NCBI RefSeq assembly: GCF_000154985.1
Contig: NZ_DS572694.1
Location: forward strand, 186,001-250,000
Reading direction: 5' to 3'
From: Streptococcus infantarius subsp. infantarius ATCC BAA-102
Lineage (GTDB): Bacteria; Bacillota; Bacilli; Lactobacillales; Streptococcaceae
DNA: 64,000 nt
Shown: one piece after another, positions 5,715-28,741 of the stretch
How the letters are laid out: each line of letters begins with the position of its first letter
Position numbering within the stretch: the stretch's first letter is position 1
Notes under the pieces: model-generated
The model's input: only the letters and a program-made list of their open reading frames with translations
Told to the model about the DNA's origin: nothing
Databases searched by the model: none
Position numbers and translations under genes: made by a program

Positions 5715-6524
5715 ATGTCTATTAAATTAGTCGCTGTCGACATCGACGGCACACTTTTAACCAACGACCGTAAAGTAACGCCTGAGGTTTTTGAAGCTGT
5801 TCAAGAAGCTAAAAAACAAGGTGTTAAGGTCATTATCGCAACTGGGCGCCCAATTCCCGGTGTTCAGCCACTTCTTAACGAATTAAATCTAAGAGAAGAA
5901 GGCGATTATGTTATTACCTTCAATGGTGGACTAGTCCAAGATACGTCAACCGGTGAAAACATCATCACGGAAACCATGACTTACGAAGACTATCTTGATA
6001 TTGAGTTCCTTAGCCGTAAATTAGATGTTCACATGCATGCCATCACGAAAAAAGGAATTTATACCGCTAACCGCAACATTGGAAAATACACGGTTCATGA
6101 ATCAAGTTTGGTTAACATGCCAATTTTTTACCGCACTCCAGAAGAAATGGGCGATAAAGAAATTATTAAAATGATGTTCATCGATGAACCTGAAATCCTC
6201 GATGCAGCCATAAAAAAAATTCCACAAGAGTTCTTCGATAAATACACTATCGTTAAATCAACACCATTTTATCTAGAATTCATGAACAAAAAAGCCAGCA
6301 AAGGAAATGCCATCAAACACCTTGCTGAAAAAATGGGGCTTACTCCTGACCAGACTATGGCAATCGGCGATGCTGAAAACGACCGTACCATGCTTGAAGC
6401 TGTTGGTAACCCTGTCGTTATGGAAAATGGTACACCTGAGCTTAAAGAAATTGCTAAATATATTACAAAATCAAACGAAGAAAGTGGCGTTGCACACGCC
6501 CTTAGAGAGTGGGTCTTAAAATAA
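5715..6524 (+). CDS. Cof-type HAD-IIB phosphatase
   Basis: Cytosolic sugar-phosphate or nucleotide phosphatase of HAD subfamily IIB. Motif I is VDIDGTLL (residues 8-15), motif II IATGRP (~42-47), Lys of motif III in ASKGNAIKHL (~195-205), motif IV MAIGDAENDRTML (~216-228). The alpha/beta cap lies between motifs II and III. Length 269 is typical. The best Shine-Dalgarno (AGGAGG, 5695-5700) is 14 nt from the ATG, unusually far, but a stop just upstream rules out an earlier start. It is the first gene of an operon with two FemAB genes: its TAA overlaps the next ATG. Substrate unknown. Confidence 0.88.
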   Translation: MSIKLVAVDIDGTLLTNDRKVTPEVFEAVQEAKKQGVKVIIATGRPIPGVQPLLNELNLREEGDYVITFNGGLVQDTSTGENIITETMTYEDYLDIEFLSRKLDVHMHAITKKGIYTANRNIGKYTVHESSLVNMPIFYRTPEEMGDKEIIKMMFIDEPEILDAAIKKIPQEFFDKYTIVKSTPFYLEFMNKKASKGNAIKHLAEKMGLTPDQTMAIGDAENDRTMLEAVGNPVVMENGTPELKEIAKYITKSNEESGVAHALREWVLK

Positions 6525-7741
6525 TGTATAGCTATAAAATCGGTATCTCAGCTGAAGAACACGATAATTTTGCAAAAGCAAGTAACCAAACTAACCTTTT
6601 ACAATCTTCAAATTGGGCAAAAATCAAGGATAACTGGGACAATGAACGTATTGGTTTCTACAAAGACGACCAATTAGTCGCTTCCGCTTCTGTCCTTATC
6701 AAAGCTTTGCCACTTGGCTTTACTATGCTTTACATTCCACGTGGACCAATCATGGACTACAGCGATAAAGAACTCGTTGCTTTCGTGATTAGCTCACTTA
6801 AAAAATATGGTAAAACAAAACATGCTCTATTCATCAAGATGGATCCAGCATTGTTATTAAAACAATACAAAATCGGTGAAGAAGTTGATGAAAACAAAGA
6901 TACACTTCTTGCAATCGACAACTTGAAAGCAGCTGGTTGCGAATGGACTGGACGCACAACAACAATTGCTGAAAGCATCCAACCTCGTTTCCAAGCCAAT
7001 GTCTACACACAAGAAGACATGACAACAACTTTCCCTAAACACACAAAACGTTTGATGAAAGACGCCGTTCACCGTGGTGTTATCACTACGCGTGGTACAA
7101 TCGATGACGTCAAAGCTTTTGCTGATGTCGTTGCCCTTACAGAAAACCGCAAAGGTGTTGCTCTTCGTAACGAAGATTACTTCCGTAAAATGATGGAAAT
7201 TTATGGTGATGATGCTTACCTACACTTGGCAAAAGTTAACTTACCAAAGCGTTTGGCTGAATACAAAGAACAATTGGCTAAAATCGAGAAAGACTTGTCT
7301 GAAACAGCTGAACACCAAAAGAAACGTTTGACAAAACTCACTCAACAAAAAAATTCTGTTACTAAATACATTAAAGAATTTGAAGAATTCGTTGAAAAAT
7401 ACCCAGATGAACTTATCATCGCTGGAATTCTGTCAGTATCATTTGGTAACGTTATGGAGATGCTTTACGCTGGTATGAACGACGAGTTCAAAAAATTCTA
7501 CCCTCAATACTCACTTTATCCAAAAGTATTCGAAGACGCATATGCTGACGGAATCATTTGGGCAAACATGGGTGGTGTTGAAGGAACGCTTGATGATGGT
7601 TTGACAAAATTTAAATCAAACTTCAATCCAACAATTGAAGAATTCATTGGAGAATTTAACATTCCAGTAAATGGTTTGCTTTACAAACTTTCAAACTTGG
7701 CTTACAATATTCGCAAACAAAGGAGAAATAACCATCAATGA
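6524..7741 (+). CDS. murM: FemAB-family peptidoglycan bridge aminoacyltransferase (MurM-like)
   Basis: Transfers an amino acid from aminoacyl-tRNA onto the lysine side chain of lipid-linked muropeptide, starting the peptidoglycan cross-bridge; acts at the inner face of the membrane. The ~405-residue protein has the two GNAT-like halves of FemABX and a charged coiled-coil arm (about residues 240-290, KIEKDLSE...KKRLTKL). The N-terminus MYSYKIGISAEEH resembles MurM. A GTG at 6509 is in frame, but the ATG at 6524 overlaps the previous stop (TAATG) and fits homologues. It ends in an ATGA overlap with the second FemAB gene. Which amino acid is added cannot be told from sequence. Confidence 0.85.
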   Translation: MYSYKIGISAEEHDNFAKASNQTNLLQSSNWAKIKDNWDNERIGFYKDDQLVASASVLIKALPLGFTMLYIPRGPIMDYSDKELVAFVISSLKKYGKTKHALFIKMDPALLLKQYKIGEEVDENKDTLLAIDNLKAAGCEWTGRTTTIAESIQPRFQANVYTQEDMTTTFPKHTKRLMKDAVHRGVITTRGTIDDVKAFADVVALTENRKGVALRNEDYFRKMMEIYGDDAYLHLAKVNLPKRLAEYKEQLAKIEKDLSETAEHQKKRLTKLTQQKNSVTKYIKEFEEFVEKYPDELIIAGILSVSFGNVMEMLYAGMNDEFKKFYPQYSLYPKVFEDAYADGIIWANMGGVEGTLDDGLTKFKSNFNPTIEEFIGEFNIPVNGLLYKLSNLAYNIRKQRRNNHQ

Positions 7742-8989: not shown

Positions 8990-9012
8990 AATATGACTTC
9001 AATGATTCTTGA

Positions 9013-9795
<783 letters not shown>

Positions 9796-9960: not shown

Positions 9961-11157
9961 TTAAGCTTCGATTTCTGAAACGATACCTGAACCAACAGTA
10001 CGTCCACCTTCACGGATTGAGAATGTAGTACCTTGTTCAACGGCGATTGGGTGAATCAATTCAACCTCGATAGTAACGTTATCACCAGGCATTACCATTT
10101 CAGTACCTGCTGGAAGTTCGATTGAACCAGTAACGTCAGTTGTACGGAAGTAGAATTGTGGACGGTAGTTGTTGAAGAATGGAGTGTGACGTCCACCTTC
10201 TTCTTTAGTAAGGATGTAAACTTCACCTTTGAATTTAGTGTGTGGGTGGATTGAACCTGGTTTAGCAATAACTTGACCACGTTCGATTTCATCACGTTGG
10301 ATACCACGAAGAAGAACACCAACGTTATCCCCTGCAAGACCTTCATCAAGTTGTTTACGGAACATTTCAACACCAGTAACAACTGCTTTTTGGCTTTCTT
10401 CTTTAAGACCAACAATTTCAACTTCGTCATTAACACGAACAACACCACGGTCAATACGTCCTGATGCAACAGTACCACGACCAGTGATTGAGAATACGTC
10501 TTCGACTGGAAGAAGCAATGGTTTGTCAGTATCACGTTCTGGTTCTGGAATGTATTCGTCAACAGTATTCATCAAGTCCATGATGATGTCTTCATATTTA
10601 GAATCACCTTCAAGAGCTTTAAGAGCTGAACCTTGGATAACTGGAATGTCATCACCTGGGAAATCGTATTCTGAAAGAAGGTCACGGATTTCCATTTCAA
10701 CCAATTCAAGCAATTCTTCATCGTCAACTAAGTCAATTTTGTTCATGAAGACGATAAGGTGTTTAACACCAACCTGACGTGAAAGAAGGATGTGTTCACG
10801 AGTTTGTGGCATTGGACCATCTGTTGAAGCTACTACAAGGATAGCACCATCCATTTGGGCAGCACCAGTGATCATGTTTTTAACGTAGTCCGCGTGTCCT
10901 GGAGCGTCGATGTGAGCGTAGTGACGTTTTTCAGTTTCGTATTCAACGTGTGCAGTGTTGATTGTGATACCGCGTTCACGTTCTTCAGGAGCAGCATCGA
11001 TAGAAGCGTAGTCTTTTGGTGTGTTAACTGCGCTTGGAAGACGACGAGCAAGAACTGTTGTAATTGCAGCTGTCAAAGTAGTTTTACCGTGGTCAACGTG
11101 TCCAATTGTACCAATGTTAACGTGTGGTTTACTACGATCGTATTTTTCTTTTGCCAT
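9961..11157 (-). CDS. tuf: Translation elongation factor Tu
   Basis: GTPase delivering aminoacyl-tRNA to the ribosome. The 398-residue protein starts [16 protein letters not shown]; GTPase motifs GHVDHGKT (G1), DAPGH (G3), NKID (G4) and SALK (G5) are present, followed by beta-barrel domains 2 and 3 ending in GRTVGSGIV. The frame stays open 23 codons further upstream, but those codons are the 5' leader: the promoter -10 at 11230-11235 and TTGGAGG 11 nt before the ATG at 11157 fix the start. Other streptococci carry tuf between ftsW and tpiA; here an IS and a sigma pair separate it from ftsW. Confidence 0.98.
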
Positions 11158-11229
11158 TTGGGTAAAAGCCTCCAATAAAATATATTTTATAGATAGACGG
11201 TAAGCAATACAGTCTAACTTTACCATACT

Positions 11230-11257
11230 ATTTTAACAAATTATGTGGGAATTGCAA
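11230..11257 (-). promoter_or_regulatory. Promoter of tuf
   Basis: Minus-strand TTGCAA (11252-11257), 16-nt spacer, TAAAAT (11230-11235), giving a leader of roughly 65 nt. Confidence 0.6.
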
Positions 11258-11289
11258 GTATTTTACTATTTTATTTATGATTTCTCTAT

Positions 11290-11302
11290 TTCTTTATTTC
11301 GT
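11290..11302. repeat. 13-bp direct repeat flanking IS30 element (left copy)
   Basis: TTCTTTATTTCGT occurs exactly here and again at 12374-12386, directly outside the imperfect terminal inverted repeats of the IS30-type element. Confidence 0.6.
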
Positions 11303-12373
11303 GCTAAATTTCAAGTCCAAGTTAGCCAGTTTGTAAAAACTCTTTAGGAGATTTGTAATCTAGAATTTTCTTTGGATAGTTATTAATCCAATTTTCAATG
11401 AATGCGACTTGTTGTGGAGTCGCATTTTTGCTTCCTTTCGGTAACCAACGACGAATCAGCCTGTTATGGTTCTCATTGCTTCCTCTTTCCCAAGAAGAAT
11501 AGGGATGAGCATAATAAATATGTTTAGGGTCAAAGACATCCTCTAAGCGACTGAATTCTGTCCCGTTATCTGCTGTGATAGAGTTAATTTGATAGTTTTT
11601 TAGAATGGCTTTCAAGGCCTGATTAACTGAAGTAGACGACTTGTCAGGAATAAGCCGAATAATTTGATAGCGACTCTTCCTGTCAGTCAGAGCAAATAAG
11701 CACTCGTTTTTAGCCCGTGTTTGAATAACAGTATCAATCTCAAAATCCCCTAGCTTCTCACGATTATTAATGCTCTCTGGTCGCTCCTCAATAGACTTTC
11801 CAGCAAGTTTAAAATTGGGGCTGACTTGTTTTTTCTTAGGGGTCGCCTTACGAGGATAAAGCATATCTGCTCTGGTTAGGCCTAGTTGTCCATGATGAAT
11901 CCAATAATAAATGGTTGAGATAGAGACATTAATACCCTTTGTTTTGACTATCATTTCAGGAGAGTATTTCTGTTTGATGTAGTGGACAATATTTTCTCTG
12001 AGCTCTTTAGTTAGAGAAAGCCGCTTCACAGAACGTTTACGATTATTATCATAAGCATCCTGTGCAAAGTCAGCTGAGTAAACTAACTCGTATTTTCCTT
12101 TACGCACTTGTTGTCTGACTTGTCCGCTCTTGACTTCATTGTGAATGGTTTGAGGAGCTTTGGCTAATCTTCTAGCGATTTCGCGATTGGAATGACCTTC
12201 TTTGAGCCAACGTTCTATATTTCTACGGTCAGCTAGTGTTAAATGTTTCCATTTTGGTGTATAATAGTTCCTGCATCCCGGAGGCTTTCTAATGTTGTTG
12301 TGGTGATTACATTATATCTCTCTGAGATGTTTTTTGATACCATCAAGTGGCTAGCTTCATTTTAGAACTTTCA
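11303..12373 (-). mobile_element. IS30-family insertion sequence (about 1.07 kb)
   Basis: Contains one IS30-type transposase. The segment between two 13-bp direct repeats has imperfect terminal inverted repeats: 11303-11328 against the reverse complement of 12348-12373 match at about 16 of 26 positions, best at the inner TTAGCCA/CTAGCCA end. It lies between the tuf promoter and the 3' end of the anti-sigma gene. The exact ends are inferred; a 13-bp target duplication would be longer than the 2-3 bp usual for IS30. Confidence 0.65.
11322..12276 (-). pseudogene. IS30-family transposase, frameshifted at the N-terminus
   Basis: DDE transposase with the IS30 catalytic core: GDFEIDTV (first Asp), ITADNGTEF (second Asp), and Glu in SSWERGSNENHNRLIRR. 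A continuous frame reaches upstream through YYTPKWKHLTLADRRNIERW, the helix-turn-helix region, but that frame has no ATG before a stop. The only suitable ATG (12276) is one base out of phase: ATGCAGGA then ACTATTATACACC. IS30 proteins of this type start MQDHYTPK as far as I recall, so one inserted base just after the start codon probably inactivates the gene. A GTG at 12107 could give a 261-residue form lacking the DNA-binding domain. Confidence 0.75.
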
Positions 12374-12386
12374 TTCTTTATTTCGT
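12374..12386. repeat. 13-bp direct repeat flanking IS30 element (right copy)
   Basis: Exact copy of 11290-11302. It contains the stop codon (TAA, read on the minus strand at 12378-12380) of the anti-sigma gene, so the element sits right at the end of that gene without truncating it. Confidence 0.6.
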
Positions 12387-13325
12387 AAGTGTGTGATATG
12401 GCTGAATTGTGACGCTCTGTCCGATATTCGAAGCGTAAATCCAATCCTTGTCTTCAAGCTGAGCAAAATTTTCAGCACGCCCAGTCAAGATAACCCCAGA
12501 AAAGGTTGCTGTTTTGTAATTTGAATTATTTTTCAAGTAAGTTTTAGCATCATCTTCTAATGACAATGTTTCATCTTCAATGCTATATCGAGAATCAACG
12601 ACACCTGACTCAATCGCCTTTTTTAAATTTGACTTGAAGTTCTTAAAATCAGCCGCATAATCATTTATTGAAGACGGAGCGAAACCTAGTTGGGCATCTA
12701 GAGCTAAATTCGCTGTATCCACAGTACTCGATGTGCCAATCCAGTACCAATTGACCAAAAGGTTATCAGGGACCATGTCTGTAATTTCTTGATAGGTGTA
12801 AGGTTTATCAAATGTAATTGCTACTTCCACAGCCTGTCCAGTCATTTCTGCAACCTTACTAATATCTTGTGTGACTTCCATACTTACTGTCTTAGCGGAA
12901 GCATTAACATTATAGAAGATTGGTACTTTATAGAGATTGCCATGTGTATAGTTGGAGCTATTGCTATCTCCTTCTTCCAAGCCTTCATTTTGACTAGCTG
13001 ACATAGGACCAATTATTGAATAATTTCCTTGATACTCTTCAAAAGGGACACTAATACCGTCAATATTTTTAGAACGGTGTGAATAAAAGGTCCCTGTAAA
13101 TTCCGAATTTGCTTCAAAGCCCCAAGTGGTGTAGTCGATATTGGGATAGGCAATCTCTGACCTCAACAGATAGTTTTCTTTGACCATCTCTGCATGACGT
13201 TCTGTCAACGAACGTAAGCCTAAAAAGATAATCAAAGCACTAATCAACATCATACCAACACTAATCCCAACTGTTTTCAAGCGATTTTTTCGCTTATTTT
13301 TCGTAGCTAATTTTTTCAAAATCAT
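12378..13325 (-). CDS. Anti-sigma factor with Sigma_reg_N/Sigma_reg_C-type domains
   Basis: Probable membrane-anchored anti-sigma factor controlling the adjacent ECF sigma factor. A short basic cytoplasmic segment (residues 1-18), one membrane helix (~19-38) and a long extracellular region follow. The external part resembles the sigma-factor regulator families: an N-terminal segment around the helix and a C-terminal domain with VEVAITFDKPYTYQEI...NWYWIGT. No zinc-binding anti-sigma motif is present. It overlaps the sigma gene by 4 bp (ATGA), so the two are translationally coupled. The trigger is unknown; an external sensory domain suggests envelope stress. Its stop codon abuts the IS30 element. 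Confidence 0.75.
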   Translation of the reverse strand: MILKKLATKNKRKNRLKTVGISVGMMLISALIIFLGLRSLTERHAEMVKENYLLRSEIAYPNIDYTTWGFEANSEFTGTFYSHRSKNIDGISVPFEEYQGNYSIIGPMSASQNEGLEEGDSNSSNYTHGNLYKVPIFYNVNASAKTVSMEVTQDISKVAEMTGQAVEVAITFDKPYTYQEITDMVPDNLLVNWYWIGTSSTVDTANLALDAQLGFAPSSINDYAADFKNFKSNLKKAIESGVVDSRYSIEDETLSLEDDAKTYLKNNSNYKTATFSGVILTGRAENFAQLEDKDWIYASNIGQSVTIQPYHTLTK

Positions 13326-13843
13326 TTGAAATCGTCATAATAATCCCCTTCTTTCTCTAATATTTTTTGCAAATCGCGTCGCCCTCGCATCAAATCAATC
13401 TTGGCTTTACTTGCTGAAATACCAAGAACTTGACAAATCTCCTTTATAGAAAGATTCTGGAAGTAATACAAATCAATCACCAAGCGATATTTTTCCTTTA
13501 ACAAAGCCACGGCTTGATAAAGTGGTTCATAATCTGGGCTATCAAAAGCAATGACATTTTCATCCTTAAAGAATTCACGTTGTAAGATTTCCCAATACTT
13601 TTTATCACGCCGATAGCGGTCAATGTAGAGCCTAACTGCCACACGGTACATCCATGCCCGCATTTTCTCGAAAGGAAGGACAATCTCGCTTTCTAGCATT
13701 TTAACGAGAACATCTTGGCTAATGTCACGTGCATTTTCAGCACTAGCCCCCGATTTTTGCAAATAATAACTAATCTCCTCAGCGAATCCTAACAATTCCA
13801 CCTCATAACCATCCAGCTTAATCCTACTCACCTCCCTTTTCAC
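13322..13843 (-). CDS. ECF-type RNA polymerase sigma factor
   Basis: Extracytoplasmic-function sigma factor of 173 residues. Region 2 (~25-90) includes ARDISQDVLVKML and AWMYRVAVRLYIDRYRRDKK, which contact the -10 and core enzyme; region 4 (~115-165) includes LLKEKYRLVIDLYYFQNLSIKEICQVLGIS, the -35-reading helix-turn-helix. The annotated GTG at 13843 has no Shine-Dalgarno; the strong GGGAGGTG lies inside the first codons, pointing to a later non-ATG start (ATT or CTG around residues 8-10) or to a leaderless GTG. A probable self-recognised promoter lies directly upstream. Such sigma/anti-sigma pairs are uncommon in streptococci. Confidence 0.85.
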   Translation of the reverse strand: MKREVSRIKLDGYEVELLGFAEEISYYLQKSGASAENARDISQDVLVKMLESEIVLPFEKMRAWMYRVAVRLYIDRYRRDKKYWEILQREFFKDENVIAFDSPDYEPLYQAVALLKEKYRLVIDLYYFQNLSIKEICQVLGISASKAKIDLMRGRRDLQKILEKEGDYYDDFK

Positions 13844-13849
13844 TTTTAT

Positions 13850-13875
13850 AACGAATCACATTTCTTTTGGTTACA
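13850..13875 (-). promoter_or_regulatory. Candidate ECF-type (autoregulated) promoter
   Basis: Minus-strand TGTAAC (13870-13875), exactly 16 nt, then CGTT (13850-13853). This resembles Bacillus ECF promoters (TGAAAC or TGTAAC, 16-17 nt, CGT). The -35 overlaps the T-tract of the ftsW terminator. A sigma-A reading (TTGTAA and TTATAA) needs a 19-nt spacer and is weaker. Confidence 0.5.
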
Positions 13876-13899
13876 AAAAAACTCCCGCAAAGGGGAGAT
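13875..13899 (-). terminator. Terminator of ftsW
   Basis: Minus-strand CTCCCC-TTTG-CGGGAG hairpin followed by a run of seven T, just after the ftsW stop codon. Confidence 0.85.
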
Positions 13900-13901
13900 T
13901 T

Positions 13902-15182
13902 CTAATAAAAACTATCTAGGTCGATAACGTTGTCATCATATTCTTGTGTTATTTCCTTGGTTTTTAATTGTTCTTCTGCTTCGCGATAAATTTCTTCGCG
14001 TTTTTCATTAGCATCGATATTCAAAACAAAACCAACCGCTACCGACAAGACCAGGACACTATTTCCTCCCTGCGATAGGAATGGGAAGGTAACCCCTGTA
14101 GATGGAATCAAGCCTGAAATTCCACCGATATTAACGAAAGTTTGCATTAGAATCATTCCTCCGATTCCAAGAGCAATCATTGAGTTAAACGGATTTTTAG
14201 CCTTAATACCAACATGCATAATGCGCAAGATTAGGAAAAATAGCAAAGCTAGGATAAGGCTTGCACCAATCATGCCAAGTTCTTCCATCACGCCTGGGAA
14301 AACAAAGTCTGTGGTTGCTTCTGGGAGATAGCCACCTTTTTCGATAGAATTTCCAAGACCACGACCAAACCAGCCACCGTTACTCATCGCATAGTATGAA
14401 TGCGCCAATTGGTGTCCTGAATCGGACAAGTCTTTAAATGGGTTATAAAAGGCGCTGAAACGTTTAGCAACATAACCAAAGACAGGAACTTTCCCCATCT
14501 TATCAACCCCGACAATAGCAATTATGCCAAGAAAGACTGTTGAGAAGGCTGTGATGGTTGCCAGAATAGCTGAAAACCAACGATAACCTACACCACTGAT
14601 AGAATACATAATCAAACCAGTCAAAACGACGATAGCTGCATTTCCAAGGTCAGGCTGCGCCGCAACCAAAAGAACCATAACTAACGAATACACGCGCCAA
14701 TCTTTCAAATCGCTAAGCTTAGTTGGCCACCATTTGCGCTTAGTCAAAGCTTGATAGTCATATGTTGAAATCAATTCTTGACGCCTTGCAAAAGTAAATG
14801 CTAAGAACCAAACAATGATGATTTTCAAATACTCAGCAGGTTGGAAACTAATAGGACCAATGACAATCCAACCATGGGCACCATTGACGGTCTTGGTAAA
14901 GAAACGTGCAATCAACAAGAGCACTACTTCTATCATCATGGTCATTGTCAAAACACGAGAGTTTTTCAAAAAGTTTAATTTTAACTTATATATAAAACTA
15001 ATTGCAAATAGACTGATTAACCAAAAAACACCCTGGTTCAGTACTGACATAAAGGGATTCACACCATACTGAATCAGTGTCGCACTAGTTGTTGAATAAA
15101 CAACAATCAGTCCAATTACTGAAAGGATTAAATAAGGCACTAGGATGGAATAATTTAGGAGATGCCTTTTATCAATTTTCAT
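13902..15182 (-). CDS. ftsW: FtsW septal peptidoglycan polymerase (SEDS family)
   Basis: Integral membrane glycosyltransferase that polymerises lipid II at the division septum with a class B PBP. About ten membrane segments are visible, with SEDS-family blocks QPDLGNAAIVVLTGL, the long extracellular loop with GRGLGNSIEKGGYLPEATTDFVF, and a terminal SQGGNSVLVLSVAVGFVLNI. The cytoplasmic tail is acidic. An ATG at 15221 overlaps the promoter -10 (TATAATG, 15220-15225) and cannot be used; MKIDKRHLLNYS at 15182 has AGGTGA 4 nt upstream and matches homologues. It lies downstream of ppc, as in other streptococci, but has its own promoter. Confidence 0.93.
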   Translation of the reverse strand: MKIDKRHLLNYSILVPYLILSVIGLIVVYSTTSATLIQYGVNPFMSVLNQGVFWLISLFAISFIYKLKLNFLKNSRVLTMTMMIEVVLLLIARFFTKTVNGAHGWIVIGPISFQPAEYLKIIIVWFLAFTFARRQELISTYDYQALTKRKWWPTKLSDLKDWRVYSLVMVLLVAAQPDLGNAAIVVLTGLIMYSISGVGYRWFSAILATITAFSTVFLGIIAIVGVDKMGKVPVFGYVAKRFSAFYNPFKDLSDSGHQLAHSYYAMSNGGWFGRGLGNSIEKGGYLPEATTDFVFPGVMEELGMIGASLILALLFFLILRIMHVGIKAKNPFNSMIALGIGGMILMQTFVNIGGISGLIPSTGVTFPFLSQGGNSVLVLSVAVGFVLNIDANEKREEIYREAEEQLKTKEITQEYDDNVIDLDSFY

Positions 15183-15219
15183 AGAGTCACCTATAATATC
15201 TTCGAATTTATCATATGAC

Positions 15220-15225
15220 ATTATA
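15220..15225 (-). promoter_or_regulatory. -10 element of ftsW promoter
   Basis: TATAAT on the minus strand; 17 nt upstream only a T-rich -35 is seen. It decides the ftsW start codon because the upstream in-frame ATG lies within it. Confidence 0.45.
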
Positions 15226-21773: not shown

Positions 21774-22763
21774 ATGACAATAAAGAAACATCTCTCTCGG
21801 AGGAAACGACATCAAAACTCAGTTTACCTAAACATTTCTGTCTTAGTCATTTCCTTTGCTGCACTTATAATCTTTTTTTCTAAACTATTCTTTTCTGGAA
21901 TTATTACACACGCGCTTGATCAAGGCTTGGATTTGTCATCACCTAGCAACTACACTACGTCTCAAACAGCCACTGTCTCAGGCACTAAAGCTAATATTTA
22001 CACAAAGAATGGCTCAAGCACCAGTCTTCCAAAAGACACCGAGTTATCTATCGATGCTTATTATTACAAAGCTAAAATCAATGAAAAAGAAGTTACCCTT
22101 GCAGAATTTGATATGAATGGTGAAACTTACTATATCGACACCAAAGATATTTCACTACAGCAAACAAACGCCATCAACCAATATATTGCTGGGACACTTA
22201 CCTATTCACACAACGAGATTACAGATAGTATTGAAAAGAGCTTTGAACAAAGCGCTTATAAAACCTCTGATGGTAAACCTCGTGGAATCATTATTCACGA
22301 TACTGGCGTTGATGATTCAACTATCCAAAGTGAAGTGAACTATATGGTTCAAAATTATGATGAAGAAGGCATTTTTGTCCATTCTTTCATCGACGATGCA
22401 ACCATTCTTCGTATTGCTGATGAAAATTACGAAGCTCAAGGCGCTGGTGCCAAAGCCAATCCTTACTACATTCAATTTGAATTAACACATGAGGATTCTC
22501 AAAAAGGCTTCGCCGAGCAACTAGCAAACGCAGCTTATTATACTGCCTACATGTTCAAAAAATATGACCTTCCTGTAACACTTGGTCAAGAAGATGGCGA
22601 AGGAACCATTTGGACACATGAAATGGTCAGCCTTTACCTTGGTGGTACTGACCACGTTGATCCAACTGATTACTGGACAGAAACCGCTAATGATTATTTC
22701 GGTACGGACTATGACGTCGAAGATTTTGTCGAACTCGTTCAAGCTTATTATAATGCTCTCTAA
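21774..22763 (+). CDS. Membrane-anchored N-acetylmuramoyl-L-alanine amidase (Amidase_2/PGRP type)
   Basis: Predicted zinc amidase that removes stem peptides from peptidoglycan glycans. A basic N-terminus (KKHLSRRKRHQ) precedes a membrane helix (~residues 19-42); then comes a ~120-residue region of unknown fold, possibly SH3-like (ATVSGTKANIYTKNG), and the Amidase_2 domain from about residue 150. Zinc ligands are visible in GIIIHDTGVDD (His) and in GTDHVDPTDYW (His and Asp). The ATG lies 6 nt after TATAAT, without a Shine-Dalgarno. With the upstream muramidase it forms a pair of anchored wall hydrolases, each with its own promoter and terminator. Confidence 0.87.
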   Translation: MTIKKHLSRRKRHQNSVYLNISVLVISFAALIIFFSKLFFSGIITHALDQGLDLSSPSNYTTSQTATVSGTKANIYTKNGSSTSLPKDTELSIDAYYYKAKINEKEVTLAEFDMNGETYYIDTKDISLQQTNAINQYIAGTLTYSHNEITDSIEKSFEQSAYKTSDGKPRGIIIHDTGVDDSTIQSEVNYMVQNYDEEGIFVHSFIDDATILRIADENYEAQGAGAKANPYYIQFELTHEDSQKGFAEQLANAAYYTAYMFKKYDLPVTLGQEDGEGTIWTHEMVSLYLGGTDHVDPTDYWTETANDYFGTDYDVEDFVELVQAYYNAL

Positions 22764-22793
22764 AAGGTGCAAACTTGTACCTTTTTTATTTTT
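22762..22793 (+). terminator. Terminator of amidase gene
   Basis: AAAAGGT-CAA/TTG-ACCTTTT hairpin followed by T-rich sequence; its 3' arm also supplies TTGTAC, the likely -35 of the next gene (TAAAAT 16 nt later). Confidence 0.85.
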
Positions 22794-22839
22794 TAGTAAA
22801 ATAGTAATTGACTAATGAATAGAAAGATTGAGAGGGAAA

Positions 22840-23322
22840 ATGGCAAAAAAAGCAAATTTAAAAAAGACACTTGTTGACCAAATTCTGGACAAGGCAAAAA
22901 TCGAACACGACAGTTTAGTAATCAATGCACTTGAGGGAGACTTACCAGATGACATTGAAAAATCTGATATTTTCAAAACCCTTGCTTTAACAGGTGACAA
23001 AACAGGTCCTCTAATCGGAATTGTTCAAATCACCGAACATCTTTCTGAGAAAAAATTAGCCAAAGTTTCTGGCAACAAAAAAGTCAGCATGATTCCACAA
23101 AAAAATCTTCAAAAAACGACTGGCTACATTCACGGAGCAAATAATCCTGTCGGTATTCATCAAAAACACAATTTTCCGATTTTCATTGACAACCGTGCTT
23201 TAGAAATGGGTACGATGATTGTTTCTGCTGGTGAAATTGGACGTTCTATCCGCATTGACAGTCAAACCTTGGCAGATTTTGTTGGTGCCAGCTTTGCTGA
23301 CTTGATTGACGATTCACATTAA
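22840..23322 (+). CDS. ybaK: Aminoacyl-tRNA deacylase, YbaK/EbsC family
   Basis: Cytosolic trans-editing enzyme that hydrolyses mischarged tRNA, typically Cys-tRNA(Pro). The ~160-residue protein carries the INS/YbaK fold, with the conserved Lys in KKVSMIPQKNLQKTTGYIHG and GANNPVGIHQK and C-terminal GEIGRSIRI. An in-frame TTG lies at 22828, but MAKKANLKKT at 22840 is the usual start; GAGAGGG is close in front of it. Followed 22 bp later by the histidine phosphatase gene, probably as one operon. Confidence 0.9.
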   Translation: MAKKANLKKTLVDQILDKAKIEHDSLVINALEGDLPDDIEKSDIFKTLALTGDKTGPLIGIVQITEHLSEKKLAKVSGNKKVSMIPQKNLQKTTGYIHGANNPVGIHQKHNFPIFIDNRALEMGTMIVSAGEIGRSIRIDSQTLADFVGASFADLIDDSH

Positions 23323-23344
23323 TTTTTAGATTGGAAAGTAACTG

Positions 23345-23974
23345 ATGAAATTTTATTTTGTACGTCATGGTAAAACACAATGGAACTTAGAAGGACGTTT
23401 CCAAGGAGCAAATGGTGACTCCCCACTCTTGGAGGAATCCGTCCATGATTTGGAAAAATTAGGTGATTATCTCCAAGATGTTAAATTTGATGCCGTTTTT
23501 TCAAGCGATTTAAAACGTGCCAGCGATACCTGCAAGATTATCATGTCACGCAGCCGCTATCCAAAGCCAATCAGCTTTCAACCCTCGCTGCGTGAATGGC
23601 ATCTTGGAAGATTGGAAGGCAGCAAAATTGCAACGATAACATCTATTTATCCTCAACAAATGCAAGCTTTTCGACATAATTTAGCTAAATTCGATAATGA
23701 TGTATTTGACGCTGAATCTGTTTATCAAACCACTAAACGCGTTGAGTCATTCATTAAATCAATGAAAAATCAACCTTATCAGAATGTCTTGTTAGTTGGG
23801 CATGGTGCTAATTTTACCGCCTCTATCCGTACTTTATTAGGATATGAACCACCCGTTCTCCGTGCCCAAGGCGGACTTGATAACGGTAGTGTGACGATTT
23901 TAGAGACCAAGGATTTTAAAACCTTCACTTGCCTAAAATGGAATGACACATCTTATAAACAAAAGAAATCTTAA
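23345..23974 (+). CDS. Histidine phosphatase family protein (phosphoglycerate mutase-like)
   Basis: Phosphatase or mutase of the histidine phosphatase superfamily. The catalytic RHG motif is in FVRHGKTQWN (residues 5-14) and the second His in LLVGHGANFTA (~150-160). Length 209 fits the family's broad-specificity phosphatases more than glycolytic GpmA, whose other motifs are absent. GGAAAG stands 8-9 nt before the ATG. Second gene of the ybaK unit; ends in a strong terminator. Substrate cannot be inferred. Confidence 0.87.
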   Translation: MKFYFVRHGKTQWNLEGRFQGANGDSPLLEESVHDLEKLGDYLQDVKFDAVFSSDLKRASDTCKIIMSRSRYPKPISFQPSLREWHLGRLEGSKIATITSIYPQQMQAFRHNLAKFDNDVFDAESVYQTTKRVESFIKSMKNQPYQNVLLVGHGANFTASIRTLLGYEPPVLRAQGGLDNGSVTILETKDFKTFTCLKWNDTSYKQKKS

Positions 23975-23980
23975 AGACAA

Positions 23981-24014
23981 AAACTCTCCTAAATAGCGTT
24001 TAGGAGGGTTCATT
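23981..24014. terminator. Bidirectional terminator between convergent genes
   Basis: CTCTCCTAAA/TTTAGGAGGG hairpin; a T-tract follows on the minus strand and weaker T's on the plus strand. Serves the histidine phosphatase and HAD genes. Confidence 0.85.
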
Positions 24015-24016
24015 TA

Positions 24017-24925
24017 TTAGTTATTTCTTGCGTATTTTAGGCGCAAAACTTTTTCTTGTTGTTTGTCCAAACGAAGCAGGATAACAACTTTATCAATACT
24101 CATGTTACTTTCAAGCAGACGTTCTGCTGCCATCATCAATCCGTTATTGATACCCATTTCAAGAATTGGATTTTTCTTGTCATTGACATCAAAGATGAAT
24201 TTATTATCAGGAAGGTCAAAGAGAACTTTCACAGCTCCGAACAATTGTTCAAAGTTATCAATAGCAACATCATAAACTGGTTTGATACCAGGTTTCAAGC
24301 TACGACCACGGTGGTTAAACCACATTGAGTGCCAGCCACCATTGAAAGCACCGACAACGTCATTGTCATATGAATCACCGACGTAAAGTGTTGTTGCAGG
24401 GTTCATGTCAAATTGCTCAGCAGCAAGGTTGAAAATCTCTTTTTCTGGTTTTTGGAATCCAGTCGCTTGACTGACAAGGACACGTTTTGGATCAACATAA
24501 TCATAAAGACCAAGTTTTTTAACTTTTTTCAATTGGTGTTCCGTTGGTCCGTTCGTGATAATTCCCATTGGAATGCCTTTTTCTTTAAGAAAATCAAGCG
24601 TCATGCGCATCTCATCAAGCATTGTGATATTTTCCAATTCTTCTTCATAGATTTCTTGAAAATGCACGCCAGTTGCTTCATCGATTTCACGGTAACCAAA
24701 TTCTAACAAGGTTTCCTTGCAACGCCAAAAACGGAAATACTCAGTTGTCCACTCACCTGCCATTACACGCGGAAATCCAACATCTGAATAATGACGGAAA
24801 CGAATATAAGCCTGATTGATTTTACTCATATCAAAATCAGGGAAACATTTCTCAACGGCAATGCGATAAGGTGCCTGTTGGTCATAAATCGTATCATCAA
24901 CATCAAAAACAATTGAAGTAATCAT
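24017..24925 (-). CDS. HAD-IA family hydrolase with C-terminal extension
   Basis: HAD phosphatase of the YjjG/HAD-IA type: motif I FDVDDTIYD (residues 7-15), motif II IITNGPTEHQ (~122-131), Lys in GFQKPEKEIF (~157-166) and motif IV LYVGDSYDNDVVG (~178-190). The family is normally about 220-240 residues; here about 70 more follow, ending in a basic segment RLDKQQEKVLRLKYARNN, preceded by GINNGLMMAAERLLESNMS. I do not recognise this extension with certainty. AAGAGA lies before the ATG. Substrate unknown, nucleotide monophosphates being common in this group. Confidence 0.85.
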   Translation of the reverse strand: MITSIVFDVDDTIYDQQAPYRIAVEKCFPDFDMSKINQAYIRFRHYSDVGFPRVMAGEWTTEYFRFWRCKETLLEFGYREIDEATGVHFQEIYEEELENITMLDEMRMTLDFLKEKGIPMGIITNGPTEHQLKKVKKLGLYDYVDPKRVLVSQATGFQKPEKEIFNLAAEQFDMNPATTLYVGDSYDNDVVGAFNGGWHSMWFNHRGRSLKPGIKPVYDVAIDNFEQLFGAVKVLFDLPDNKFIFDVNDKKNPILEMGINNGLMMAAERLLESNMSIDKVVILLRLDKQQEKVLRLKYARNN

Positions 24926-26744
<1,819 letters not shown>

Positions 26745-26815: not shown

Positions 26816-28584
26816 TCACTCTTTCACTTTTTTATCTGTCAGGTAAGCGAGTGGGCTTGTGATGAGGACGATTAGGGATGCGATGATGAAGACTTGGTTA
26901 AAGGCTCGGCTAAGATTTTTATTTTTAGAGTCTTTAATCTTTTGGAAGGTATCGGTTAGTTCTTCTTTTTGGGCTAGGAGTTGGATTCCTTGTCCTAGTT
27001 GCGCTTGCCCTTGGCTTAAAGGTGTTAAGGCTGAGCTGATTTGTTTTGGAAGATTGACTACGACTTTTTCTGAGCCTACGACTAATTGACTATTGGCATC
27101 ATAGAGTTTTCGATAATCACTGCCTTTCTTAGGGAGAGGAAGATTATCAGTCTTTGTAGCCGCAGCTTTGACCTTCGTCAGCATTTGATTTTGTTTTTTA
27201 GAAGAATCAGTGGTCTTGCTTGTAGATTCAAAGATTTCTTTGATTTCCATTTTAACGACAGATTTCACCGAGTCAGATAAAACATGCTTATCAATTTGAA
27301 CATAAGCATAATGTCTGATATTATCCCTAGCCGTGTTAATATTAGCATTCAAAATAGTCACAAGTAATGCCATACCAATCTCTTGCCCAATATATCTTGA
27401 AGCGTCGACAATCCCAAAACCAATTCCTGCTTTAATAACAGGAAGGTATCTTACAGAAGCAGTCATAGACATCGCCATAAATCCTAAACCAAGACCAATA
27501 ATCACATTACAACAAATAATAATAGCTTCTGAAGTTTCAAATTGAACTAAGCTTAGCATAAAAAGTCCAGCTGCTGTGATAAACATCCCAATACCAATAA
27601 GAAGTTTCGCAGAAAGTTTTTGGTACATTTTGGTTGCTAGAGGCATTCCCAAAGCAATCGCTAAAGAGGTTGGCACGATGAGATAAGCTGAATGAAGAGC
27701 GCTATAGCCACGAACATTTTGAAGGAAGTAATTCAAAATCAATGACGGTACAATAATTGCAAAACCAAAAATCATGTAAATGATGCTTGAGGCTGTAAAG
27801 ATCTTTTCTTTGAACAGTGACAGTTCAATAATCGGTGATTTTACTTTTTCTTCTACAAAAATTAACAAGATTAAGCCAACTAAACTAATGGCAAAGCTTA
27901 TAAAATGATAGTTGACGTCCAACCATATTCTCTTCCTTCTAGAAGACCAAATGTCAAACCTCCTAAGGCACAAGTCAAAAATACCATACCAAGCCAGTCA
28001 ATTTCTTTAGCAATACTAAAATCATAAGATTCCTCATTGCCAACTAGAATAAGCACAAAAGAAATCAAAGCAATTGGAATATTAATTCCAAAAATCCAAT
28101 TGTAGCTTGCCCAATTAATGATAAAGCCACCTATGACTGGACCGCTTGCTGCAGCCAAAGCGCTGAATGCACCTATAACTGCTGTTACCTTACTTGTGTT
28201 TGCTTTTCCAAAAAGTGCAATCCCCATTGGTAAAACAATCGGTGTCAAAATTCCCCCACCGATTCCTTGGAAAAATCGGAAAGCAATTAAAAAACTTAGC
28301 GAATTTGCCATCATGCAAGCAAATGAAAAGACTCCAAATATAGCAACACAAATCAGCATAACTAATCTACGACCATACAAATCAGCGAGCTTAGAAGCTG
28401 TAATAATAAAAGCAGCCATTGCCAAAACATAAATCGTTGAAACCCAGCTCGTATCTGTCAAACTAGAATTGAGATGCTTCATAATGTCTGGTAAGGCAAT
28501 ATTAACGATAGTAGCATCCAAAGCTCCCATAAACATGGCAAGAACTAATCCGACGAACCCAAATACTTTTCTTGTCTTTGACAT
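26816..28584 (-). pseudogene. MFS drug exporter, DHA2/EmrB-QacA type (14 TM), frameshifted
   Basis: Two overlapping frames together encode one 14-helix major facilitator. The first (28584-27898) has helices 1-6, with the DHA2 blocks GALDATIVNIALPDI and LADLYGRR, and stops after EYGWTSTIIL. The second carries on from SFAISLVGLILLIF to the end. The break is in TTTTATAAGC near 27898-27905, where one extra base would restore the frame (ATT TTA NTA AGC). A ~150-residue hydrophilic loop lies before the last helix, as in QacA-like pumps. The lesion is recent, because both halves are otherwise intact. Divergent from a TetR regulator. Confidence 0.85.
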
Positions 28585-28741
28585 ATTCCTATCCTTTCTT
28601 CATAAAAACTCATACCCCATTATGCTTCAAAAAGCTTAATACGATAAGTCAACGCTTTAACATTTTACGAAAAAATAATACAATATTAACAAATCAAAAA
28701 CCATGACAGATTTTAATAATGTGTTTAATTAAGGGAAAATT

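Follow-up and report, generated by a model that had tools for sequence, protein, structure and literature searches.

The window, by which we mean the whole 64-kb stretch of DNA that was analysed, carries on its minus strand, in this order, ftsW, a terminator-like hairpin, the gene of an ECF sigma factor, the gene of a membrane anti-sigma protein, an IS30 element and tuf (Table 1). The sigma open reading frame (ORF; 13322-13843) contains a Sigma70_r4_2 domain (E 2.3e-12, Pfam) and scores 50.9 bits against the cut-off of 42.9 for TIGR02937 (NCBIfam), while its Sigma70_r2 domain, at 23.4 bits, lies slightly below the Pfam cut-off of 24 bits. The protein combines regions 2 and 4, the former just under its cut-off, with the lack of regions 1 and 3 in a length of 166-173 residues, and its gene is paired with that of a membrane anti-sigma protein; the ECF assignment made in the original prediction is thereby upheld. 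The product of the second ORF (12378-13325) has one predicted helix, a short N-terminal segment and both domains of the Sigma_reg type of anti-sigma, each above its Pfam gathering score: Sigma_reg_N (PF13800) with 43.1 bits (cut-off 26.3) and Sigma_reg_C (PF13791) with 67.6 bits (cut-off 25). The profile search thus agrees with the one-helix anti-sigma with Sigma_reg-type external domains that had been proposed for this ORF.

An insertion sequence had likewise been placed between ftsW and tuf, and an IS30 transposase ORF, which reaches 244.5 bits against a cut-off of 80 for NF033563 (NCBIfam), is indeed found between the anti-sigma gene and tuf. The ends of the element are defined by the 13-bp direct repeats and by a second copy in the genome G139, which matches exactly the span 11303-12373 at 96%; a repeat search at these ends found no inverted terminal repeats. 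Because the repeat on its anti-sigma side overlaps the anti-sigma stop codon, the anti-sigma reading frame is intact at the end of the element. The transposase frame stays open past its listed GTG start (11322-12290, minus strand), without a canonical start for the N-terminal part. Elsewhere in the window, at 27000-28600, an MFS-type transporter is encoded in two overlapping ORFs (26816-27973 and 27898-28584), which may reflect a frameshift.

Table 1. Features at the sigma/anti-sigma locus (window coordinates)
Feature	Position	Strand	Remarks	Basis
tuf (EF-Tu)	9961..11157	-	constant neighbour downstream of the module	
Segment near-identical to G139	11117..13950		bounded within tuf and at the ftsW 3' end	difference counts and block identities
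13-bp direct repeat, tuf side of the IS	11290..11302			repeat search
IS30-family insertion sequence	11303..12373	-	transposase ORF 11322-12107	NF033563 and second copy in G139
13-bp direct repeat, IS side of the anti-sigma gene	12374..12386		overlaps the anti-sigma stop codon	repeat search
Membrane anti-sigma gene	12378..13325	-	Sigma_reg_N and Sigma_reg_C	Pfam and comparison with relatives
ECF sigma factor gene	13322..13822	-	166 aa from the conserved start position, ATT	Pfam/NCBIfam; 69 sigma loci compared
Shine-Dalgarno region GGAGGTGA and ATT start codon	13822..13834	-	part of the conserved initiation site	sequence
ECF-type promoter of the module	13848..13875	-	-35 TGTAACC 13875-13869; -10 CGTTAT 13853-13848; spacer 15	
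Terminator-like hairpin after ftsW	13897-13882			consensus scan
ftsW	13902..15221	-	upstream neighbour of the module	Pfam PF01098

The module promoter and its occurrence elsewhere

The promoter upstream of the sigma genes has the form TGTAACC, 15 or 16 bases, CGTTATA. An exact TGTAACN{15,17}CGTTNTA is present within 450 nt upstream in 58 of 70 distinct sigma loci, Lactococcus included, and its single match in the window is the module promoter. Among the 12 loci that lack the exact motif 8 fit a slightly relaxed form, and the 4 that do not are S. gallolyticus BI02, the second copies of L048 and L051, and L049. When TGTAACN{15,17}CGTTAT was searched in five genomes of the window's complex, one match per genome was found, at the module, in G001, G139, G038 and G062, and none in G089, in which the -35 is altered and the anti-sigma gene broken; the reversed control gave 0, 0, 1, 1 and 0 matches in G001, G139, G038, G062 and G089, respectively. 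Since the exact motif occurs only at the module in four of the five genomes, we infer that the module is autoregulated and that it has hardly any further strong targets, or none, within this complex.

Less stringent searches of the complex gave no excess over the reversed controls, with 28-44 matches per genome against 63-100 for GTAACN{15,17}CGTT, and 8-12 against 10-24 when up to 2 mismatches were allowed. No convincing new target emerged from the 14 looser-pattern sites that were inspected, of which 8 lay within ORFs and 6 outside; weak extra targets of the sigma factor may exist in the complex. With the -10 form CGTTNTA, one further site (L142) is common to G001, G139, G038 and G089; its surroundings look coding, perhaps with a likeness to a single-strand binding protein.

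At the level of the genus, the motif is matched in 138 of 247 genomes, and the reversed control is similar in size, so that the counts alone mean little. From the matches listed genus-wide 14 regions were picked by eye, a choice that favours promoter-like sites, and 13 of these regions contained 14 motif sites: one belonged to the S. ovis module itself, 6 lay upstream of an ORF, 5 inside ORFs, and 2 were unplaced. Among the matches listed, the motif precedes: 1) a MacB/FtsX permease gene in G148, G236 and G024 (at least three species); 2) an S11 D-Ala-D-Ala carboxypeptidase gene in G206 and G116 (at least two); and 3) the gene of a Bsp-repeat protein with a VanY/LdcB domain, near the module, in S. 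ovis (G208). Ten genomes bear the permease; the motif stands before the permease gene in only 3 of them, and the module is present in 7 (one-sided Fisher p 0.03). Because permease and carboxypeptidase genes carry the module motif in other species, we lean towards an envelope signal for the switch. The envelope-stress circuit of the original prediction gains indirect support from the D,D- and L,D-carboxypeptidase and MacB/FtsX permease genes that follow the motif in other species, and not from the nearby ftsW, which is no evidence for a regulon because the exact motif occurs only at the module in the four genomes of the complex.

Age of the locus and probable replacement of its allele

ECF sigma factors had been thought rare in streptococci, an expectation that failed: with the anti-sigma as query (E <= 0.001, fragments counted), relatives were found in 90 of 247 Streptococcus genomes. 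A scan of named entries comprised 56 loci, of which 44 (L031-L074) are entered under a Streptococcus name and the remaining 12 under Lactococcus, further Streptococcaceae or Bacillota bins. Of these 44 Streptococcus loci, 39 have the pair immediately before tuf; the linkage is missing in S. castoreus, S. bovimastitidis, S. uberis, S. penaeicida and S. pseudoporcinus. What lies upstream of the module varies among the named loci (ppc-ftsW, ftsW-ppc, or neither), and within 1.5 kb upstream of tuf the non-carriers have ftsW in 5 of 20 cases, ppc in 3 and neither in 12, so that the adjacency of ftsW and tuf stated for other streptococci is variable. In G097 and G244, which are close relatives of the window, the ftsW-tuf interval retains only about the last anti-sigma codons, and in G226 a promoter-like stretch and the sigma start are fused to the anti-sigma C-terminus across a deletion. 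In light of its wide occurrence upstream of tuf and of these deletion remnants, we read the module at this position as an old streptococcal locus that was lost repeatedly. The comparison of the ftsW-tuf interval across streptococci, which had been proposed as a check, hence came out mostly on the side of an ancestral module, yet one present in about one third of the genomes and not in all.

Several variants of the arrangement were observed in this survey. The module lies away from tuf in four pyogenic-type loci, and its neighbours in L058 and L069 are genes for an Rce1-like membrane protease and an S66 L,D-carboxypeptidase. Tandem double sigma/anti-sigma modules are found in L026, L028, L030, L048, L051 and L052, the second copy being more diverged in both promoter and sigma. 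In the Lactococcus loci L076 and L083 the listed anti-sigma ORF opens with an extra membrane-like N-terminal stretch, and the sigma/anti-sigma border is therefore unlike that of streptococci. The copy of S. gallolyticus BI02 (L003/L032) has internal stops in the anti-sigma gene plus a changed module -35, and is hence silenced and broken. In S. equinus ATCC 9812 (L002/L031) sigma and anti-sigma form a single ORF, which we rejected as a true fusion, since it resembles an indel in an A run.

The anti-sigma of the relatives starts at an ATG within the last sigma codons, with the N-terminus M-K/E-T..FEKIAKK. In the window this ATG is out of frame through an indel, which is one of the 5 differences from G139; the start is intact in other copies, G139 among them, and the indel may be a real mutation or a sequencing error. 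The ATGA by which the two genes had been considered coupled is present in the window, but it is a secondary start, 13 bases beyond the ATG of the relatives, and the conserved start lies further inside the sigma gene. The out-of-frame start, together with the altered -35 and anti-sigma stops of G089 and the deletions at the locus in G097, G244 and G226, would suit a decaying relic, imported with the IS and a disturbed anti-sigma N-terminus and now being lost in this strain like the copies of G089, G097 and G244; we consider this rather unlikely, as the sigma ORF and promoter of the window are intact, its anti-sigma is still open from the secondary ATG, the lone indel may be a sequencing error, and the pair is conserved over the genus.

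The allele present in the window has a history distinct from that of the locus. Between 11,050 and 13,950 the window differs from G139 at only 5 positions (4 substitutions and 1 indel) and shares with it the same IS insertion site; 41 differences are found over 13,900-14,199, with 37 in the 200 bases from 14,000. The backbone outside the tract has a median identity of 96.8% to G001, 95.8% to G244, 95.0% to G097 and 83.4% to G139, as calculated from the 58 500-base blocks of the first 45 kb of the window in which all four genomes were aligned. The nearest relative, G001, carries an allele of its own at the locus: its sigma is 80.7% identical to that of G139, and its anti-sigma 48.9%, the lowest value of 40 comparable proteins (median 88.8%). 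With the anti-sigma being the most divergent of these shared proteins, a very different sensor allele would therefore have been imported. The segment of about 11.1-13.95 kb, IS30 included, looks like a recent homologous replacement, with a G139-like relative as the source of the diverged allele, and a donor within the S. gallolyticus group is likely because the broken anti-sigma of BI02 (G089) is 91-92% identical. The horizontal acquisition suggested as a possibility in the original prediction thus fits the allele, since only 5 differences separate ~2.8 kb of the window from G139 and the surrounding backbone is much nearer to G001, G244 and G097, but not the module as such, which is widespread and has left deletion remnants.

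Further pieces of mosaic were noticed in the window. A second G139-like tract, at 22500-25400 (95-99% to G139 versus 73-93% to G001), covers genes for phosphoglycerate-mutase-like and HAD-like proteins, and blocks at ~6000-7000 and 9000-9500 are nearest to G062 (97-100%).

A chimeric or mixed assembly could in principle produce such a mosaic in place of recombination, given that the tract borders fall in the conserved genes tuf and ftsW and that the nearest relative switches again at ~22.5-25.4 kb and 6-6.9/9 kb; however, several short tracts with differing nearest relatives are consistent with streptococcal gene conversion, and the 5 positions that differ from G139 imply that the tract was not copied from the G139 assembly, which makes an artefact improbable.

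The start position of the sigma gene

The start at GTG 13843 that had originally been given to the sigma gene is not plausible, as it comes four bases past the -10 element and still ahead of the Shine-Dalgarno sequence. In the window the position at which the start is conserved is instead the ATT at 13822, with a further in-frame alternative, GTG 13831, inside the Shine-Dalgarno sequence. Across 69 distinct sigma loci the codon ahead of the conserved (K)LDxYE is ATT in 27, ATC in 18, GTG in 12, ATG in 7, ATA in 3, and ACG and TTG in one each; AUU, AUC, AUA or ACG thus occupy the start position in 49 of the 69 genes, and AUG, GUG or UUG in the remainder. For the 58 Streptococcus loci the share of ATT, ATC and ATA is 48. 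A near-cognate start codon stands at this position in 69 of 69 genes, versus 0-22 of 69 at the flanking codons -6 to +8. On a tree of 65 sigma proteins the start classes change 6 times, and supported branches require at least 4 of these changes, whereas shuffling gave a mean of 16.6. At the sequence level, a non-AUG codon is hence conserved at this position across species, and the sigma protein appears to start there. The idea that the weak start is offset by a longer Shine-Dalgarno sequence is not supported, as no difference in its length was seen between non-canonical and canonical starts (p 0.35); the spacing is mostly 8 at the former versus mostly 5 at the latter.

It might be argued that the ATH codon is merely an ordinary second, fourth or later one with a conserved isoleucine, and that the true start is an upstream GTG or ATG, such as the GTG in the Shine-Dalgarno sequence, or an internal codon 9 or 10. 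Such an in-frame GTG three codons earlier is present in 19 of the 69 sigma genes, but it overlaps the Shine-Dalgarno sequence itself; the ATH codon is directly preceded by ATG in S. ferus (L005) and by GTG in S. merionis (L072), yet no in-frame ATG, GTG or TTG stands between the last stop and the start position in 18 of the 49 genes of the non-canonical class. Internal canonical codons are present, in many genes as TTG or ATG at codon 9 or 10, with AGGA before them in 2 of the 18 critical cases, but starts at these codons would forfeit the conserved KLDxYE region. Furthermore, the genes without ATH or ACG at the position have only ATG, GTG or TTG there (20/20), a pattern unexpected from coding Val or Leu. 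We regard the ordinary-codon explanation as distinctly unlikely.

The proposed switch and its known counterparts

The reading that we favour, with a probability of roughly two in three, is that of an old ECF sigma/anti-sigma switch upstream of tuf, which mainly fires itself, starts its sigma factor at a non-AUG codon and has had its allele recently replaced in this strain. In the working that we infer for it, the anti-sigma, with its short N-terminal cytosolic segment, one helix and large outer domain, would hold the sigma factor until an outer signal led to proteolysis of the anti-sigma, probably ending with an RseP/Eep-type M50 protease (an M50 protease is present in 7 of 7 genomes searched, and likewise in 14 of 14 controls). 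The freed sigma would read TGTAACC-N15/16-CGTTATA, chiefly re-firing its own operon, and the anti-sigma made along with it would shut off the pulse. The non-AUG start codon (AUU in the window) would keep translation of the sigma low, and the anti-sigma, made from the overlapping AUG, would keep the brake in excess; a low sigma and a well-made brake are the simplest reading because the anti-sigma starts of the relatives are ATG. In some species peptidoglycan carboxypeptidases and the MacB/FtsX permease would have been recruited to the regulon, which would therefore point to an envelope signal, and in this strain the whole segment, IS30 included, would recently have been swapped for the diverged allele of a G139-like relative.

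That the main role of the module is instead to increase EF-Tu under stress, by read-through from its promoter, is very unlikely: its place upstream of tuf is constant in the 39 loci even where ftsW and ppc are swapped or missing, and only a short gap separates the anti-sigma stop from the tuf promoter-like sequence in the six carriers inspected, but tuf retains this promoter-like sequence of its own in carriers and non-carriers alike, five named loci lack the linkage, and in the window the IS lies between the pair and tuf. Some read-through into tuf is possible because these six carriers leave little room for a terminator after the anti-sigma stop; in the window the IS intervenes. We are similarly doubtful of a wider scheme, in which a genus-wide ECF switch would make its sigma from a conserved AUU, AUC or AUA at a level set by initiation fidelity (IF3), run its operon into tuf and move its fast-diverging sensor by allele replacement, thus forming an envelope sensor wired to and from translation.

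In the literature that our search reached, streptococcal ECF signaling is little studied. Should the start codon be genuine, automated annotation would misplace many of these sigma starts, and an ECF sigma would be restrained at translation initiation in addition to its anti-sigma. The promoter motif provides a direct handle on the regulon, whose few extra targets suggest trimming of peptidoglycan peptides, while the rapid divergence of the anti-sigma, along with the import of the allele, suggests that the sensor is exchanged between species.

Among known systems, the module resembles the ECF sigmas of the SigM/SigV/SigW kind from Firmicutes in the architecture of regions 2 and 4, the AAC-type -35 and the overlap with a membrane anti-sigma gene, and it differs from them in its apparently self-only regulon in the window's complex and in its non-AUG start position. 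The closest solved sequence is of the B. subtilis SigW type (5wuq, E 1.5e-9, PDB sequence search); nevertheless, the sigma of the window falls outside the SigM subfamily (TIGR02950; 85 bits versus a cut-off of 147.95) and below the NCBIfam cut-offs for SigV, SigW and SigZ. The anti-sigma is akin to the Sigma_reg_N/Sigma_reg_C anti-sigmas in its two domains over cut-off, one predicted helix and short N-terminal segment; a PDB sequence search found no solved structure for it at E < 0.01 and only two weak matches, both to TlpC chemotaxis receptors (E 0.021 and 0.059).

Our literature search, which reached few subscription journals, found nothing on the promoter, start codon or tuf linkage of this family. 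Within streptococci, S. dysgalactiae subsp. equisimilis has a putative ECF sigma/anti-sigma pair that is reported to reach higher levels in infected muscle than in vitro, and to be present in several streptococci but absent from GAS (PMC12345147). The likeness lies in the pairing of a streptococcal ECF sigma gene with an anti-sigma gene, sequence identity with the family studied here being our assumption; the accessible part of that report describes the pair by its expression in infected muscle, and not by promoter, start codon or locus (PMC12345147). With regard to the start codon, the accessible portion of a study in S. aureus describes conserved AUU/AUA starts in infC, cvfC1 and ccpN, with ~10% of the AUG reporter yield in poor medium (PMC13009471). 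These genes do not encode sigma factors, and the unusual starts of streptococci come without a longer Shine-Dalgarno sequence; nevertheless, the two cases share, as far as that portion goes, an AUU or AUA start that follows a strong Shine-Dalgarno sequence and is conserved between species, accompanied in S. aureus by a reduced yield (PMC13009471).
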